The notes under the pieces: generated by a model
What the model was told of the DNA's origin: nothing
Seen by the model: the letters and a program-made list of their open reading frames with translations, nothing else
Database searches by the model: none
Origin: Deltaproteobacteria bacterium
GTDB lineage: Bacteria > Desulfobacterota > Desulfobulbia > Desulfobulbales > Desulfurivibrionaceae
Length of the DNA: 40,508 bases
NCBI GenBank assembly: GCA_021822005.1
Contig: JAJZSH010000004.1
Coordinates: 1 to 40,508 of the forward strand
Reading direction: 5' to 3'
Made by a program: the position numbers and the translations under genes
In this document: in pieces, positions 1-31,404 of the stretch
How positions within the stretch are numbered: position 1 is the first letter of the stretch
Layout: the number at the start of each line of letters is the position of its first letter

Positions 1-2301
1 GCCGGACATGCCGGTGGCGTTAGCCGTGGCGGTGGTGCCGCCGTACTCGGTGAACAGCGCGGTGATGTTGGCATCGGTTACGCCGCTGGTCAATGCCATG
101 GCGCCCGTCAATGTGCCGTTGCCGATGTTGCCGGCAAAGGCGGCCAGGGCGGTCAATGCTGCCGCGTCCAGGCCGTCCAGAGCACCGGTGATGCCGGTGG
201 CGGAGATCTTGCCAGTGACCAGGGCGCCAATCTGGGCAGCGGACATGCCGCTGATGACGGCGGTGACGGTAGTGCCGGTGTACTTGGCGAACAACGCCGC
301 GATGTCGGCAGTGGCAACGGCGCTGGTCAGTGGCAAAGCACCGCTAATGCCACCTGCCGCTATGTTGGCAATGTTGGTCACCAGATGACCCACTTCGGTT
401 GCCGTAGCACCCGTGGCCACTACGGTAGCGCCAGTGGCCTTGCTCAGCAGACCCGAGGTCACGGCGTCAGTGATGGCAGCATCGTTCAGCGCCAGAGACG
501 TCAGGTTGGTGATGCCTCCCGCCGCGACTTTGGCAATACCCGTATTAACTGTTGCCAAATTGGCAGTCGAAGCACCGGTGGCATTAATTGTTGCCGAAGC
601 ATCAGCCAGTTTCGTGGACAGGCCTGCTACTGCAAACGTGGCAGCGGTTAGCGTTACAGCTGGAACACCACCCGCAGCGACAGTGGCTATTGCAGGACTG
701 GGCGTTGCCACGATCCCGCCACGGGTGAAGGTCAGGTTTGTCCCATCAGTTGTCAATGTAACAGCGCCCGTCGCTGTACCGCCGAAGCTCAGAACACCGC
801 CAGTGTTAGTCACCGTAAAAGTCGTGACCGGGGTACTATCGGCCGGCGGTGTGACAGGTGTAGTCATTACCGGCACCGTCGCGGTCAAATCCCCCCCCAC
901 CGCTGCCGTAACCGCCGTATCAAGAGCCGTGCCGGTAAAACTGCTCACCGTACTGGCGATGCTGCCTGCAGCCATTCCGGTCTGCAGCGAATCCGCCATC
1001 GCGCCCTGCACCACGATCTGCACCCTGGCGATCTGCGACAAAGCTGCGGTGAAGTCGGTGGGGTTGGCTGCCATGGCGGCATCGACCTTGGTGTTGGCGC
1101 TGGACATGACGCTGGCGATGTTGTCCAGGGAGGCGTTTACCGCCGTGGTTGCGCCGGTCGAGGTGGCCGTGGCGGCTTCGGTCATCACGCTTTTCAGGGT
1201 CGCGGTCTGCGTCAGGTCGACGGTGGTGGTCGCGGCGGCAAAATTGTTGGCCAGAGCCGTGGCCATCGTGGCCATGGCGTCCGTGGCCGAGGTGGCGCTC
1301 GATGCGCCCTGAATGACGGAGACGCCCTGCACCAGGATGTTGGCGACCTTAGCCGCAGCGGCCTGCACTTGCGCGGCAACGGTCTTGTCCGCCGTGGTGC
1401 CGCTGCCGACCGCAACGCTGATGGCATCCAGGGTTTGAAGATTAACCGTGGCGGGCAGCCCCAGCGCGGTCAGCACTTGGGTTTGCGCTGCCGCAATGGA
1501 AGTCGCCTTGCCCGAATCCACCATGGATTGCATCACGGTGGTGAGGGGGTTGACCATTCCCGATCCGTCGGGGGCGGTCATCATGCCGGTGAATGCCAGA
1601 TTGGTGGCGATATCGGTGCCGCCGCTGGCGATGAGTTTGCCGGTGGCGCCTTGCAAGGTGAAGGCGCCATTGGCATCGGTGGTGGCCTTGGCTTCGCCCG
1701 CGTTCCAGACGCCGTTGCCGTTGGCGTCGGCGAAGACAGTGGCATCCTTGATGTAGCCGTCGGCCAGTTTGCCGGTGGTGGTGCTGGCGGCCACCACAGA
1801 GGCAACGGAAGTGGCCATGGCCGCATTGGCAGCGCTCATAGAGGTCGTGGTATGGAGAACCGCGGATACGGCGGTGCGGGCGGCGGTAGCCGCGGCGGTT
1901 CCAACGTAGCCGGCAACCTCCGCCGGAGTATCCAGGGCAGCGGTGAAGTCCGTGGCGTAGGATACCCGGTTGTTGATGGTGGTGATATCATCGTTCAGGG
2001 CGTTGGCCTGCATGGTATCGACCAGCGAGCTCACGGTTTCGCGGCCGGCGTTGAATTCCGCCACCCAGTAGGCCTTGCCGACCGTATCCGAGGCGCGGCC
2101 AAGGAGGTTCTGGTAGACCTGCTCGACCCGCTGGTCAGCGGTCATGCCGGAGTAAAGCGTCGCATATTCGTTGCTGGCGGCAAAACCGGCTTTCATGGTT
2201 GCGGCATCCTGAGTCTGCCAGTAGGCAAGCCCTGCGGTATCGGCAGGACGGCCAAAATATGCCAGATATGCCTTTTGTACATCAGCAGAAGAAACAGCCA
2301 T
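1..2301 (-). CDS. Large repetitive surface/secreted protein with N-terminal DUF4214-like domain; partial, runs off the left edge
   Basis: ATG at 2301 on minus strand. The frame was hand-translated in sampled blocks without finding a stop and is still open at position 1. N-terminus MAVSSADVQKAYLAYFGRPADTAGLAYWQTQDAATMKAGFAASNEY. The rest is Ala/Thr/Gly-rich with repeats. Absent from the ORF track because it is open-ended. Confidence 0.88.
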   Translation of the reverse strand, partial: MAVSSADVQKAYLAYFGRPADTAGLAYWQTQDAATMKAGFAASNEYATLYSGMTADQRVEQVYQNLLGRASDTVGKAYWVAEFNAGRETVSSLVDTMQANALNDDITTINNRVSYATDFTAALDTPAEVAGYVGTAAATAARTAVSAVLHTTTSMSAANAAMATSVASVVAASTTTGKLADGYIKDATVFADANGNGVWNAGEAKATTDANGAFTLQGATGKLIASGGTDIATNLAFTGMMTAPDGSGMVNPLTTVMQSMVDSGKATSIAAAQTQVLTALGLPATVNLQTLDAISVAVGSGTTADKTVAAQVQAAAAKVANILVQGVSVIQGASSATSATDAMATMATALANNFAAATTTVDLTQTATLKSVMTEAATATSTGATTAVNASLDNIASVMSSANTKVDAAMAANPTDFTAALSQIARVQIVVQGAMADSLQTGMAAGSIASTVSSFTGTALDTAVTAAVGGDLTATVPVMTTPVTPPADSTPVTTFTVTNTGGVLSFGGTATGAVTLTTDGTNLTFTRGGIVATPSPAIATVAAGGVPAVTLTAATFAVAGLSTKLADASATINATGASTANLATVNTGIAKVAAGGITNLTSLALNDAAITDAVTSGLLSKATGATVVATGATATEVGHLVTNIANIAAGGISGALPLTSAVATADIAALFAKYTGTTVTAVISGMSAAQIGALVTGKISATGITGALDGLDAAALTALAAFAGNIGNGTLTGAMALTSGVTDANITALFTEYGGTTATANATGMSG

Positions 2302-2402
2302 GACTTTTTCTCCTCATTTCAATTATTGAATAAACATACCACTATGCCGTTCAGCAATAGTGGAGACCAAATCGTTCACGCCGCAAGTTGTTTTTCGTAG
2401 TT

Positions 2403-2548
2403 AGTGTCCGTCCGGAAACGAGCAATTTCGTTCGAGAGCAAGGCGCGAGGGAGACGAAAAAGCGGAGCGTACATTATGGTACGTGAGCATTTTTCGACGA
2501 CTGAGCAACGCGGCAATCGGGCGAAAGGGCCGTTTCCGGATGGACACT
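2403..2548 (+). mobile_element. 146-bp MITE-like element, copy 1
   Basis: Terminal inverted repeats AGTGTCCGTCCGGAAAC / GTTTCCGGATGGACACT; flanked by AGTT direct repeats; near-identical inverted copy at 26061-26206. Confidence 0.85.
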
Positions 2549-2728
2549 AGTTATGGTACGTGGCCATCTCCAATACTTATGATAATAGATCTTTAAAAAT
2601 ATCTTATGCATTCAGTTTTATTGTCAATACGTAAAAAATACGGATACCGAAAAATAATATTAGGGCCATCGTTTTCCGGCTAGTTTTTTGCATTCTGCAA
2701 TTTTCTAACCGGACAACGCGGACGAACC

Positions 2729-3034
2729 TTACTCGTCAAGCTCGGGCAACGGCTCCCCCCAATCGTCATCCTCCGGATTTTCTGTCTGGCAACAGGCCTG
2801 GGCATCATCGTCCTGATCAGCCAGATCATCGAACAGCCTCACTTCGTCTGGTGGGGCAATGGCGGCAAGATCGGCCTCGTGCCAGGCTTCAAGGGTGATT
2901 TCTTCTGTTGCCCCATCGTCATGCTGGAGTTCCACAATCCCTTCATCCTCGTCAACGGTAACCACGAAGAAGCGGGCGCCATCCTCGATGGCCTCGTACC
3001 AGTTTCCCTCAACGGGTTCAGTGTCGGTCGGCAT
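2729..3034 (-). CDS. DUF6763-like small acidic protein
   Basis: MPTDTEPVEGNWYEAIEDGARFFVVTVDEDEGIVELQHDDG...; internal Met preferred over the longer ORF start at 3085. Confidence 0.7.
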   Translation of the reverse strand: MPTDTEPVEGNWYEAIEDGARFFVVTVDEDEGIVELQHDDGATEEITLEAWHEADLAAIAPPDEVRLFDDLADQDDDAQACCQTENPEDDDWGEPLPELDE

Positions 3035-3069
3035 GGGTTTTTCCGTCCGGGCCGGGGAGGAGCAAGGTG

Positions 3070-3252
3070 TTACATGAACAGGCAATCCTCCCGCCAGCAG
3101 CAGTCTTCCTGGCTGCAGTGTTCCAGGGCCGAGCCAAAACAGGGGAAGTTGCCTTCTTTTTCCTGGATGGCGCGGATGAGATCCTCTTTTTTCATCTTGC
3201 CGGGCCTGATGCCAAGATCTTGTGCCTTTGCTTTGATGTCGAGCATTTTCAT
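3070..3252 (-). CDS. Small SAP/Rho-N-like domain protein with Cys-rich C-terminus
   Basis: MKMLDIKAKAQDLGIRPGKMKKEDLIRAIQEKEGNFPCFGSALEHCSQEDCCWREDCLFM. Confidence 0.75.
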   Translation of the reverse strand: MKMLDIKAKAQDLGIRPGKMKKEDLIRAIQEKEGNFPCFGSALEHCSQEDCCWREDCLFM

Positions 3253-3298
3253 GGAAAACCTCCGTGGGTATTGGGAATGATGCTGGGAATCCGTATCG

Positions 3299-3745
3299 TC
3301 AAATGCAGGGATTCATGCTGAGCACAGGGCATTTGGCGGTTTTGATCACCCGCTCGGTAACGCTGCCGAACAGGGCTTTTTCCACCCCTTTGCAGGTCTG
3401 GGTGCCGATCATGATCAGGTCGCAGCCTTCGGCCTCGGCGTGGCGGACGATCTCTCGAGGGACATTGCCGTTGAGCACCGCGCTTGCATGGGGGATGTCC
3501 TTTGCCATGTTCTCGTCGATGAATTCCGCCATCTTGCGTTTGGCCCGCTCGAGCAGGTCTTTTTCCAGATTTTCCAGCGGCAGGTGGGGCACCGCAAAAC
3601 CAGCATAGGCATCAAGGCTTTCCACCACAAAAACCACTTCGATGGCCGCCCCGAATTTGCGGGCGATCATGGTGGCGGATTGCAGAACTCTGTTTGAATG
3701 TTCGGAAAAATCCGTGGGGACCAGAATTTTTTTGATGCCGTTCAT
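3299..3745 (-). CDS. Universal stress protein (UspA family)
   Basis: MNGIKKILVPTDFSEHSNRVLQSA...DLIMIGTQTCKGVEKALFGSVTERVIKTAKCPVLSM. Confidence 0.93.
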   Translation of the reverse strand: MNGIKKILVPTDFSEHSNRVLQSATMIARKFGAAIEVVFVVESLDAYAGFAVPHLPLENLEKDLLERAKRKMAEFIDENMAKDIPHASAVLNGNVPREIVRHAEAEGCDLIMIGTQTCKGVEKALFGSVTERVIKTAKCPVLSMNPCI

Positions 3746-27054: not shown

Positions 27055-27243
27055 ATGCAAAAAATATTGAGGAAAAAGGAGGTCAGGGAAATAACTGGTC
27101 TGAGCGACACGACCCTCTGGCGGCTTGAGCGCGCGAGTAAATTCCCGAGGAGACTTCGGCTTGGCGCCGGCGCAATCGGCTGGCTGCAAGAAGAGGTTGA
27201 GGGCTGGATTGAGGAAAAAGCGGCCGAGCGTGGGGCGGCCTAA
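27055..27243 (+). CDS. AlpA-like excisionase/regulator
   Basis: ILRKKEVREITGLSDTTLWRLERASKFPRRLRLGAGAIGWLQEEVEGWIEEKAAER. Confidence 0.9.
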   Translation: MQKILRKKEVREITGLSDTTLWRLERASKFPRRLRLGAGAIGWLQEEVEGWIEEKAAERGAA

Positions 27244-27245
27244 AA

Positions 27246-28346
27246 ATGGTTTTCGGTGGCCAACGACAAATAGATACCAGATCGGCGGCTAAGCTTGTGG
27301 CGTCTTTGGTGGGCCATGACAATGTCATCAGCCTTTCCCGTTTGATACTAAAATTATTGGGCGGGGACTACCCTGCTGCAGTCTTGCTCTGTCAATCAAT
27401 ATATTGGCAGAGCAAGGTGGAAGCGGGGAAGGGAGGCACGAAAGACGGTTATTTTTGGAAATCGATGGCCGACTGGCATAGGGAAACAGCTCTTAGCGAG
27501 TATCAAGTCCGATCTGCCACTAAACGTCTGTTGAAAGCCGGATTTTTGAAGACCACGGTCAGAAAGGCATGGTCAGATCAGTCCCGTGACATGGTGCCCA
27601 CCGTGCATTACCTCGTTTATATGGATAATATATTAGAATCATTGCTTTCTTTAGTTTCCGCAGATTCAATTCCGAAAAAAATCAATTTTCAAATCAAAGA
27701 AAAGTGCAGAATCGACTCCGAGGAAATTGATGCGACTTTATATACAGAGACTACTAAAAAAACAAAAACTACCACCACCCTCTCCCCCTCATCATTTCCT
27801 GTAGCCCGGCTGAAGCCGGCGGCCCAAGACGCCGGTGGTGGTAGTGAGGATGTGAAAGAGTACATCAGGCTTGCCGCTGAAGATTACTGCCGAAGCAAAA
27901 ATCTTGGACCTGAAGGGCTGGCCGGGACAATCAACTCGATACAGAAACGGCTGGCATCCCAGGGAGGCATGACAGAGATTGATCAACAGCAGCTCTCGGC
28001 CTTCCGTAAGAGAAAGCAGGAGGTCCAGGTTATGCGAGCCCGGAGGGCCGTCCATGCAGAAATCATCCACCTGCCTTTGCCTGATGAGCCGCCTGTTTGG
28101 CGGCAGGCCAAAGAACATTTGCGGGACACCCTGCCCACCGACACTTACTTCCTGTGGATCGAACCCTTGATCTGCATAGCTCAAGAGGGCAACACCCTGG
28201 ATCTGGCCGGTACGGACCCGTATTTCTGCTCTTGGGTCAAAAATAACTGCCTGGCGGATATTCAGGACGCCTTGCAGGATGTAGGCCTGATGGGCGCCAA
28301 GGTGCGGCTGACAGTGGCCGTGGTTGACGCCGTGGAGATGCGGTGA
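27246..28346 (+). CDS. Replication-type protein: winged-helix-like N-terminus and DnaA-N-like C-terminus
   Basis: ISLSRLILKLLGGDYPAAVLLCQSIYWQSK...DWHRETALSEYQVRSATKRLLKAGFL; C-term VWRQAKEHLRDTLPTDTYFLWIEPLICIAQEGNTLDLAGTDPYFCSWVKNNCLADIQDAL. Confidence 0.7.
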   Translation: MVFGGQRQIDTRSAAKLVASLVGHDNVISLSRLILKLLGGDYPAAVLLCQSIYWQSKVEAGKGGTKDGYFWKSMADWHRETALSEYQVRSATKRLLKAGFLKTTVRKAWSDQSRDMVPTVHYLVYMDNILESLLSLVSADSIPKKINFQIKEKCRIDSEEIDATLYTETTKKTKTTTTLSPSSFPVARLKPAAQDAGGGSEDVKEYIRLAAEDYCRSKNLGPEGLAGTINSIQKRLASQGGMTEIDQQQLSAFRKRKQEVQVMRARRAVHAEIIHLPLPDEPPVWRQAKEHLRDTLPTDTYFLWIEPLICIAQEGNTLDLAGTDPYFCSWVKNNCLADIQDALQDVGLMGAKVRLTVAVVDAVEMR

Positions 28347-28614: not shown

Positions 28615-28989
28615 ATGAATACCGAAAACAAAAAAAGAAAATATGGACCCACCCCGAAGCCGGCGTCAGAGCTGCGAAGGATAAGAGTTTCTTCTTTTTT
28701 CACCAAGGGAGAATTCGAGGAACTTTTACGCCGATCCGCCGGCGCAAACCCCCCTGCGTTTTTGCGCAAAGCAGCGTTGGGGACACTGGAATCGCGAGTG
28801 CCAGAGATCAATAAAAAGGCTTGGGAGTCGTTGGCCAGAGCGTCGGCAAACCTTAATCAAATTGCCGCATCCCTGAACACGATGTGGCAGGAAGGTGTAC
28901 TTCCTGGGCTACCTGAAATCGAAAACATAAAAATAGAGCTAGCTGATTTCAGAAATCAAATTTTAGGGATCTCAATTTCCCTTAGGTGA
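28615..28989 (+). CDS. MobC-like relaxosome accessory protein
   Basis: ELRRIRVSSFFTKGEFEELLRRSAGANPPAFLRKAAL...ASANLNQIAASLNTM; directly upstream of relaxase. Confidence 0.78.
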   Translation: MNTENKKRKYGPTPKPASELRRIRVSSFFTKGEFEELLRRSAGANPPAFLRKAALGTLESRVPEINKKAWESLARASANLNQIAASLNTMWQEGVLPGLPEIENIKIELADFRNQILGISISLR

Positions 28990-29002: not shown

Positions 29003-30715
29003 ATGAAAGCGATGAAAAATGTGAGCCGCGGCAAAGGATTCCGAGGTTGCCTCGATTATGTTTTTCTGCGAGATGAAAAGGCACGTCGAGCCGGAAAGAA
29101 GCCCGGAATCTTGATCGGCGGAAACATGTCAGGGCATGATCCGCGGACACTGGCCGCAGAATTTGGCATAACCCGTAAAGTTTTAACCAAACGAAAAATT
29201 GAAAAACCTGTTTGGCATCAAACCTTGAGATTACCTGCCGGAGAAAAATTACCCACTGAAAAGTGGATTGAAATCGCCGATGAATATATGTCGCTGATGG
29301 GGTTCACAGGCCTGCACATGCGGTCTTATGTGCTCCATGATGATGAAGATGGTCAACACATTCATATCGTTGCAAGTCGAGTGGGACTAGATGCTGATGT
29401 CTATAAGGGGCAAAACGATAATTACAGATCCACAAATATCGTACGTGGACTTGAAAAAAAGCATGGGTTGCGGGTGACATCTGAAGAAAAAAGGGACAAG
29501 GCGCAGCCCAGCAAAAATGAACTTGAAAAAGCTTTACGTACAGGCAAGCAGCCGCCCAAAATGGTGATCCAGAACACTATCGATCAGATCATGGCCTGTG
29601 GTTCGCTTGGTACCTCTGATTTTGTATTTCTCTTAGGCGAATACGAGATAACCGCCAAAGCCAATATCGCGTCAACAGGCAAACTCAGTGGCTTTTCTTT
29701 CTCTTTGGCCAGCCACACCGACAAGTCCGGCCAACCTATTTTTTTTAAAGGTAGCACACTAGGCAAGGCATTCACTGCTACAGGCCTGGAGTCACGCGGC
29801 CTTCAGTACAACCCAATCAGGGACATGCCAATACTCACCGGCCGCCACCCCCAGGCTGCACCAGATTATTCCGGTGCCCCGAAGATCCGAAAGAAAAACG
29901 GCGGCCGCGAGTTTTCCCTGATTGTTTTTATGCGTTTCGAGCCCTCCCCGGGCGGCCAGCTTTATCGCTGGCAATCCGGCGCTCCGGCGTTCATCGATCG
30001 GGGGAACGAAATCATTTGTGTAGGGAAAGCCACTGGCGCCAAGGTAAGGGGCATGCTAGACCTTGCCCGCGAAAAAGGTTGGTCACGAATTGAGCTATCC
30101 GGCCCGCGAGAGTTCCAGATGGCAGCCGCCAGGGAAGCCGCAATCCGGGGTATTTCTGTGTCGGGCGATAACAAAGAAATTCAAGAAATTTGGAGGCAAG
30201 AATATGACCGAACAGCAGATGCACGCAATGGTCTGGGGATCGATGAGCAAAACGTCGGAGATTCTGACCTGCGGCGGGAGGACGTAATCGATGGAATCGA
30301 AACTCGCCCAAGTTCAACGATTACCACCACCCCCGAAGCCTCCGATACTGCACGAAATAGAGCAAGCGAGACAGGAGATCCAGGGGCTCCGCCAAGATTT
30401 GACGGAGATAAAAAGAGCCATCGGGAACCTAAGCCTTCTGGTCAAGATGTCTGCAACCCTGTGGCCGGAGGAGATTTTCAAAACGATCGATCCTGGCTTA
30501 CAGACAATGAAAAGGGGAATCGAGGAGGACTTGCTAAAAATGGAAAAAAAGATTCTAAGCGAGACACAGGGTATGATCCAAGAGGTCTTGCGTCGCTTGA
30601 TCAAACGCATCGGCAGCCTGCCAGTCCAGATAGCCGAAGCGATGCCGAAGAAAGGTCTCTTCAACAGATAGAGCCAAAGCCACCCCTCAATCACCACCCT
30701 TCCCCTGGTGGATGA
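29003..30715 (+). CDS. MobA/VirD2-like relaxase with LPD7-like domain and polar tail
   Basis: SRGKGFRGCLDYVF..., SYVLHDDEDGQHIHIVASRV, then FIDRGNEIICVGKATGAKVRGMLDLAREKGWSRIELSGPREFQMAAAREAAIRGISVSG. Confidence 0.88.
   Translation: MKAMKNVSRGKGFRGCLDYVFLRDEKARRAGKKPGILIGGNMSGHDPRTLAAEFGITRKVLTKRKIEKPVWHQTLRLPAGEKLPTEKWIEIADEYMSLMGFTGLHMRSYVLHDDEDGQHIHIVASRVGLDADVYKGQNDNYRSTNIVRGLEKKHGLRVTSEEKRDKAQPSKNELEKALRTGKQPPKMVIQNTIDQIMACGSLGTSDFVFLLGEYEITAKANIASTGKLSGFSFSLASHTDKSGQPIFFKGSTLGKAFTATGLESRGLQYNPIRDMPILTGRHPQAAPDYSGAPKIRKKNGGREFSLIVFMRFEPSPGGQLYRWQSGAPAFIDRGNEIICVGKATGAKVRGMLDLAREKGWSRIELSGPREFQMAAAREAAIRGISVSGDNKEIQEIWRQEYDRTADARNGLGIDEQNVGDSDLRREDVIDGIETRPSSTITTTPEASDTARNRASETGDPGAPPRFDGDKKSHREPKPSGQDVCNPVAGGDFQNDRSWLTDNEKGNRGGLAKNGKKDSKRDTGYDPRGLASLDQTHRQPASPDSRSDAEERSLQQIEPKPPLNHHPSPGG
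30204..30287 (+). CDS. Nested small ORF in relaxase gene (27 aa)
   Basis: TTGGAGGCAAGAATATG start context; MTEQQMHAMVWGSMSKTSEILTCGGRT*; +1 frame relative to relaxase. Confidence 0.5.
   Translation: MTEQQMHAMVWGSMSKTSEILTCGGRT
30291..30671 (+). CDS. Nested overlapping ORF in relaxase C-terminal region (126 aa)
   Basis: GGGAGGACGTAATCGATG start context; MESKLAQVQRLPPPPKPPILHEIEQARQEIQGLRQDLTEIKRAIGNLSLLVKMSATLWPEEIFKTI.... Confidence 0.7.
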   Translation: MESKLAQVQRLPPPPKPPILHEIEQARQEIQGLRQDLTEIKRAIGNLSLLVKMSATLWPEEIFKTIDPGLQTMKRGIEEDLLKMEKKILSETQGMIQEVLRRLIKRIGSLPVQIAEAMPKKGLFNR

Positions 30716-30760: not shown

Positions 30761-31404
30761 AGTGTCCGTCCGGAAACCCCGGTTTTAAATTGAGGGCTGT
30801 TGACATGCAGTAGCTGAGGGCGGCAAGGCGTTAAAGGAAAAATCCCGGACTGGATCGGCAAGTCAGCTTGGCCTTACCCGCATCCCGTTTGAGAAACTGG
30901 GGGCGTCCCTAACTTCCTCCGTGAGCGAGAATTTTGTGGCCCTGGAAACTGAGCAGCCGGCCGCCGAAAGAACTTTGCCACAGCAGCAGCCCAAGAGGGG
31001 CTGACTATCGTCTCTTTCTTTCATAACCTGCTGCAATTTGGGCTTCATGCGTAGGGCAGCATTGGCCGAGATCCCCATAGTTCTGGCCATATTAAGGGAA
31101 GAAATTCCGTCCTTGGCTCGGGTTATGAGGTAGATACCGAGAAACCATATCTTGAGCGGGAGTTTGGTGGCGACAAATATGGTCACCCTGATCAGAGATG
31201 TTTGAGAATGGCACCGGTGGCACTGGTAGACTTTGCTGCTATGGATTTCGCAATATTCAGTATGGCCGCATTCTGGACACTCAAAGCCTTGCGGTCAGCG
31301 CATCTTGAACAGAACGGATCGGCACTGCTCTTCAGTGTCGTATTGGGAGAGAAATTGTGTCAAACTCAACCCTCGTTGGAATTGGACCTTGTTTTTAGCC
31401 ATGG
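30761..31404 (-). pseudogene. IS1595-like (ISXO2-type) transposase remnant
   Basis: Minus strand from ATG at 31404: MAKNKVQFQRGLSLTQFLSQYDTEEQCRSVLFKMR*PQGFECPECGHTEYCEIHSSKVYQCHRCHSQTSLIRVTIFVATKLPLKIWFLGIYLITRAKDGISSLNMARTMGISANAALRMKPKLQQVM; in-frame TGA and loss of the catalytic region. End at 30761 is AGTGTCCGTCCGGAAAC. Confidence 0.85.

Follow-up and report, generated by a model that had tools for sequence, protein, structure and literature searches.

Genes nested in a second frame of a relaxase gene have been described in two groups of plasmids. In RSF1010 (IncQ), mobB lies in another frame of mobA/repB, and MobB is essential for mobilization (PMC2200642). In RP4 (IncP), TraH is encoded in another frame within traI and stabilises the TraI-TraJ-oriT complex (PMC7314908). 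The TraH of R751, also IncP, is listed with a length of 130 as a "relaxosome stabilizing protein" (PMC3614916), and the matching +1 ORF that we found in R751 traI is exactly 130 codons long, counted from its ATG. The gene-within-gene arrangement of traH/traI and mobB/mobA is thus already known; the tandem form of it reported here is new.

The DNA analysed (the window) is a 40,508-nucleotide stretch of contig JAJZSH010000004.1 from a Deltaproteobacteria bacterium. It carries the following genes of a presumed mobilizable element, together with a relaxase gene. L007 denotes the corresponding relaxase locus of Desulfobulbaceae bacterium UBA2273 (genome G194), which belongs to the same genus as the window genome.

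27055-27243, plus strand: AlpA-type regulator of the presumed mobilizable element (Pfam Phage_AlpA, 1.5e-14)
27246-28346, plus strand: protein with a DnaA N-terminal-like domain, same presumed element (Pfam DnaA_N, 4.3e-06)
28615-28989, plus strand: MobC/NikA-like accessory gene immediately upstream of the relaxase gene (below the Pfam cut-off; L007 counterpart 47% identical)
29003-30715, plus strand: relaxase gene, 570 aa, MOBP-like (nuclease domain at residues 32-156, LPD7 at residues 320-399, polar tail over the nested ORFs)

The relaxase matches the Pfam families Relaxase (2.7e-23) and LPD7 (7.1e-16), and its nuclease domain is of the MobA/VirD2 type. Together with its IncQ/IncP-like relatives and the MobC/NikA-like gene upstream, this nuclease domain places the host gene among the MOBP mobilization relaxases. 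Att repeats were sought beside tRNA-Pro within the window and none were found. Between the relaxase and TetR genes (30863-31402) there are short antisense ORF fragments, one of which matches phrog_25593 (E 5.5e-9); these may be the remains of an insertion element. In the counterpart element of G194 (L033:1437-13959), a tyrosine recombinase gene is found beside the mob genes, which also adjoin an Eco57I-type restriction-modification methylase and a ResIII-domain protein. In the window, none of these three genes was noticed alongside the mob genes.

Directly past LPD7, two consecutive ORFs begin in the +1 frame of the relaxase gene. A sequence-only reading of this DNA had called both of them nested genes, each with a good Shine-Dalgarno sequence. 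Their positions, frame and signals were borne out, and ORF2 does prove to be a conserved nested gene in the tail of an LPD7 relaxase. ORF1, by contrast with that reading, is a remnant of traH.

30192-30196, plus strand: Shine-Dalgarno of ORF1, GGAGG, inherited from traH (identical in L007)
30204-30287, plus strand: ORF1, 27 codons, remnant of a TraH-type gene (TraH family alignment; 138 bp missing relative to L007)
30215-30219, plus strand: approximate junction of the 138-bp in-frame deletion, with CAG flanks (DNA alignment with L007)
30276-30282, plus strand: Shine-Dalgarno of ORF2, GGGAGGA, within the end of ORF1 (conserved in L007)
30291-30671, plus strand: ORF2, 126 aa, nested in the relaxase gene in the +1 frame (L007 identity, dN/dS, predicted helices)

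Both nested ATGs are preceded by a well-spaced GGAGG core. Among the 1258 ATGs on the two strands of the window, 30 have such a core (GGAGG or AGGAG) in front, as does one of 47 out-of-frame ATGs within coding sequences. The stop codon of ORF1 (TAA, 30285-30287) sits three bases before the ATG of ORF2 at 30291, a spacing that is consistent with translational coupling. A 127-aa open frame also runs antisense to ORF2 (30314-30697, minus strand), probably as a by-product of composition.

The origin of ORF1 is apparent from L007, where the same position encodes a 73-aa, Cys-rich, acidic protein (pI 5.2). This protein is 35% identical to R751 TraH over 66 residues and shares its pattern of Cys and Trp residues. 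Five Cys and two Trp are common to seven aligned TraH-type proteins, whose invariant columns include C30, C33, C47, C49, C69, S36, W38, M52, W57 and G71. The Cys-rich core of TraH (CxxCxxSxW...CxC...W...C) is present in the L007 homologue and absent from ORF1 of the window. Relative to L007, the window has lost 138 bp (46 codons) in frame, and with them four of the five conserved Cys; the Shine-Dalgarno sequence, the start, the first codons and the C-terminal end (QMHAMVWGS..ILTCGGR) remain. Since it is full-length TraH that is widespread, we take the window copy to have lost this segment, rather than L007 to have gained it. Searches by tblastn with the TraH-type proteins of L007 and of a second relaxase locus of the window genome (L016) picked up relatives from 776 and 953 plasmid records; most of these relatives lie beneath relaxase genes. 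The match in pRSB223 (L023) is the annotated traH, in the +1 frame of traI; the TraH-type ORFs of R751, L007 and the window share this +1 placement within a relaxase gene. A comparison of the TraH profile with solved structures returned a single insignificant match. On these alignments, ORF1 is the broken remnant of a TraH gene, neither a gene of its own nor a functional TraH. The precedent that the sequence-only reading had named, IncQ mobB, is not the right one for ORF1; the precedent is traH within the traI of IncP plasmids.

The resemblance to IncP is not complete. While ORF1 of L007 is homologous to TraH and, as in RP4 and R751, is found in the +1 frame within a relaxase gene, the host relaxase here is IncQ-like with an LPD7 domain instead of TraI, TraH is placed after LPD7, a second nested gene stands behind it, and the window copy of TraH is broken. 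Two further TraH-type genes were observed. The second relaxase of the window genome (L016:1492-2943, contig C288) has an intact one nested at 2255-2452, between the nuclease/TraI-middle region and LPD7, unlike its position in the L007 relaxase. In plasmid p643bA (L025), a TraH-type gene at 2432-2710 lies in the +1 frame of mobQ (1627-3450), a relaxase annotated as MobQ and outside the MOBP class; this TraH-type gene is absent from the plasmid's gene list.

ORF2 encodes a basic protein (pI 9.7) with a Pro-rich start and no membrane helix. Its AlphaFold2 model, of moderate confidence (mean pLDDT 70), has two long predicted helices at residues 18-57 and 68-108, in agreement with the helical character and Pro-rich start that had been proposed from the sequence. 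The only close relative is found in L007. The two proteins are 88% identical across all 126 residues, the Shine-Dalgarno sequence, ATG and stop are shared, and there is no internal stop; hence neither of the signs of a spurious frame that the sequence-only reading had named (stops, or loss of the start signals) appears in the sole close homologue. Beyond L007, no ORF2 relatives were detectable in plasmids (tblastn), in viral contigs or in 258 genomes of the class. Four further genomes of the order gave weak partial matches (E 0.002-0.005), which were dismissed as chance, two having internal stops and two lying within much longer open frames. Comparison with Pfam, NCBIfam and PHROGs gave only weak chance matches of the coiled-coil type, and a structure search with the low-confidence ORF2 model gave no match below E=4.7. 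Among eleven plasmid and two same-order relaxase loci that carry TraH, no convincing ORF2-like gene was found behind TraH, where open stretches reach only 45-70 codons.

An open +1 frame could be a by-product of the relaxase tail, whose composition would leave the frame open while only the relaxase frame is used. The length of ORF2 agrees with this idea. When synonymous codons were permuted across the whole relaxase gene, a +1 ORF of 127 codons was reached in 28% of permutations; over the ORF2 stretch, with the relaxase protein held fixed, the +1 frame was open every time. ORF length was accordingly rejected as evidence for the nested genes. We instead judge the nested frame to be real because of homology, the conserved Shine-Dalgarno and ATG, and the pattern of substitutions. 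At the position of ORF1 there is homology to TraH, which IncP plasmids carry as a real gene. Over ORF2, the 40 substitutions between the window and L007 (a single pair, from two genomes of one genus) fall 9/10/21 at nested codon positions 1/2/3, an excess at position 3 (P=0.0096). The excess at nested position 2 that would be expected if the relaxase frame were constrained is absent. Substitutions thus track the phase of the nested codons and not that of the relaxase, and we regard the by-product explanation as very improbable.

Counts of dN/dS (Nei-Gojobori, window vs L007) agree. Over ORF2 DNA, the nested frame gives 0.19 and the relaxase frame 0.90, the latter inflated by the bias of such counting in overlapping frames; the value for the single-coding part of the relaxase is 0.10. 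The bias alone does not produce an excess at nested third positions. Four other relaxases of the genus (L010, L011, L012 and L015, one of them in the window genome) share the order of Relaxase and LPD7 followed by a +1 nested gene, here with a membrane helix, that is under purifying selection. In these genus mates, dN/dS is 0.25-0.41 in the nested frame and 1.10-1.64 in the relaxase frame, and the synonymous rate of the nested part (0.17-0.54) is well under that of the single-coding part (0.90-2.25). By these estimates, ORF2 is under purifying selection whereas the relaxase frame on the same DNA is not, and ORF2 is almost certainly a real gene. Over ORF2, the relaxase frame is probably the unconstrained and derived one, as had been supposed from its low-complexity polar sequence (mean hydropathy -1.43, hydrophobic residues 13.5%).

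Should the relaxase frame carry no constraint at all, only the nested genes would matter: the relaxase may once have ended after LPD7, lost its stop, and come to run passively through what were downstream genes. Such a history would fit the dN/dS of the relaxase frame, which is near 1 over ORF2 and exceeds 1 in the genus mates, and also a polar tail with few hydrophobic residues. However, in none of the relatives examined is the relaxase frame interrupted over the nested ORF, and the 138-bp deletion is in frame. With the ORF2 protein held fixed, chance alone leaves the relaxase frame open with P=0.034-0.036 in the window and 0.006-0.007 in L007, so that both frames seem to be kept; this evidence is modest, the same figure being 1-29% for the other nested proteins, with L020 an exception at 80%. 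There is thus a modest indication that the relaxase tail, too, is maintained as an open frame, and we consider its passive origin by stop loss unlikely.

Part of the similarity in the tail may have a more recent cause. Upstream, the relaxase is saturated at silent sites between the window and L007 (dS 3.2). DNA identity, about 75% before the ORF1 region, reaches 90% there and remains elevated as far as about 50 bases past the relaxase stop, with 45 of 50 bases identical beyond that stop. A recent exchange of the tail segment between the two elements is therefore probable. It would agree with the notion of a modular tail, but would also mean that part of the tail's conservation is youth. Extending this, the tail could be a cassette whose recombination brought in the ORF2 segment and removed most of TraH, with ORF2 perhaps on its way out. 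Yet the Shine-Dalgarno sequence, ATG and next codons of ORF1, 5' of the junction, are also near-identical, as a simple deletion predicts, and low synonymous rates are general in nested parts. We hold the cassette account to be possible but somewhat doubtful; it is compatible with the explanation that we prefer.

To place ORF2 among other nested genes, the relatives of the relaxase were compared. The nearest plasmid relaxases are IncQ-like (pGXY040, pGNB2 and pWES-1) and those of two Pseudomonas plasmids. A long +1 nested ORF is present in each of these five and in each of the four genus relaxases, and all nine nested ORFs have a hydrophobic helix near the C-terminus; from position and architecture we infer that they are of the MobB type. 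A tenth relative, L016, has its nested TraH in place of the membrane-helix ORF. A nested +1 gene is thus the rule in this relaxase clade as sampled here, nearly every close relative examined having one. Given that the nearest plasmid relaxases (IncQ-like MOBP) already hold nested +1 ORFs, the window is not clearly the "independent" example that it had been taken for. Gene tables treat these loci unevenly. In pGXY040 and pWES-1 the nested +1 ORF is listed as a hypothetical protein and the overlapping relaxase is dropped or split; for pHSL3 only fragments of the relaxase are listed, and the relaxase, which seems to shift frame, may be decayed or contain sequence errors (L020:3249-3734, L022:3773-4456 and L024:2228-2994).

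Like the MobB of RSF1010 and the nested ORFs of pGNB2 and other relatives, ORF2 is a helical protein of accessory type that a related relaxase gene carries in another frame, but it has neither their membrane helix nor any detectable sequence similarity to the MobB-like nested proteins. It could still be a highly diverged MobB that has lost its membrane helix. It shares the location after LPD7 and the +1 phase with the membrane-helix ORFs of the genus mates, in which a Pro-rich N-terminal part likewise precedes helical-looking sequence. Those ORFs encode 236-249 aa, about twice the length of ORF2, and are not preceded by TraH. Furthermore, the maximum 19-residue hydropathy of ORF2 is 0.76, compared to at least 1.99 in all nine MobB-like proteins, and profile comparison with these proteins gave a probability of 0.3% (from a query profile of two sequences only). 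Descent from MobB is in our judgement quite improbable. We regard ORF2 as a conserved helical protein outside the recognised families; the TraH+ORF2 tandem and ORF2 itself are what is new.

Taken together, we think it likely that the window holds a dual-coding relaxase tail with a decayed traH and a functional ORF2 of relaxosome-type role. The DNA behind LPD7 would have been dual-coding, its +1 frame first holding a TraH-type gene and ORF2 in tandem. A 138-bp deletion that kept both frames would then have destroyed TraH in the window copy, leaving the traH start signal and a 27-codon stub as a leader that ends three bases before the ORF2 ATG. ORF2 would remain a functional gene, as its conservation supports. 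Its product is most likely synthesised on the relaxase mRNA, in parallel with the relaxase, and its translation may be coupled to that of the ORF1 stub. Over ORF2, the relaxase frame would encode a polar and probably disordered tail, maintained as an open frame but with a largely unconstrained sequence. ORF2 has no detectable homology to MobB or TraH, and therefore its role rests on position. Judging from position and class, it is most likely an oligomeric coiled-coil auxiliary of the relaxosome, which would, like TraH and MobB, either stabilise the complex of relaxase and oriT or deliver it to the type IV coupling protein. We are more confident that ORF2 is under selection and that ORF1 derives from traH than we are of this role.

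What is known of nested relaxosome genes comes from a few model plasmids, and annotation often misses such genes. The cases described here extend this record to relaxases on Desulfobulbaceae genomic contigs, with selection visible in the nested frame, and the window captures one nested gene, traH, in decay. Location within the relaxase gene guarantees co-transfer and matched expression. We tentatively suggest that the +1 frame of relaxase tails may be an exchangeable niche, occupied singly or in tandem by TraH, by MobB-type membrane proteins or by the unrelated helical ORF2 family, which would come, go and replace one another through in-frame changes that leave the relaxase uninterrupted. Should ORF2 be a relaxosome protein, no fewer than three kinds of helper would use the same dual-coding slot, and relaxase tails would be good places to study the origin, exchange and decay of overlapping genes.
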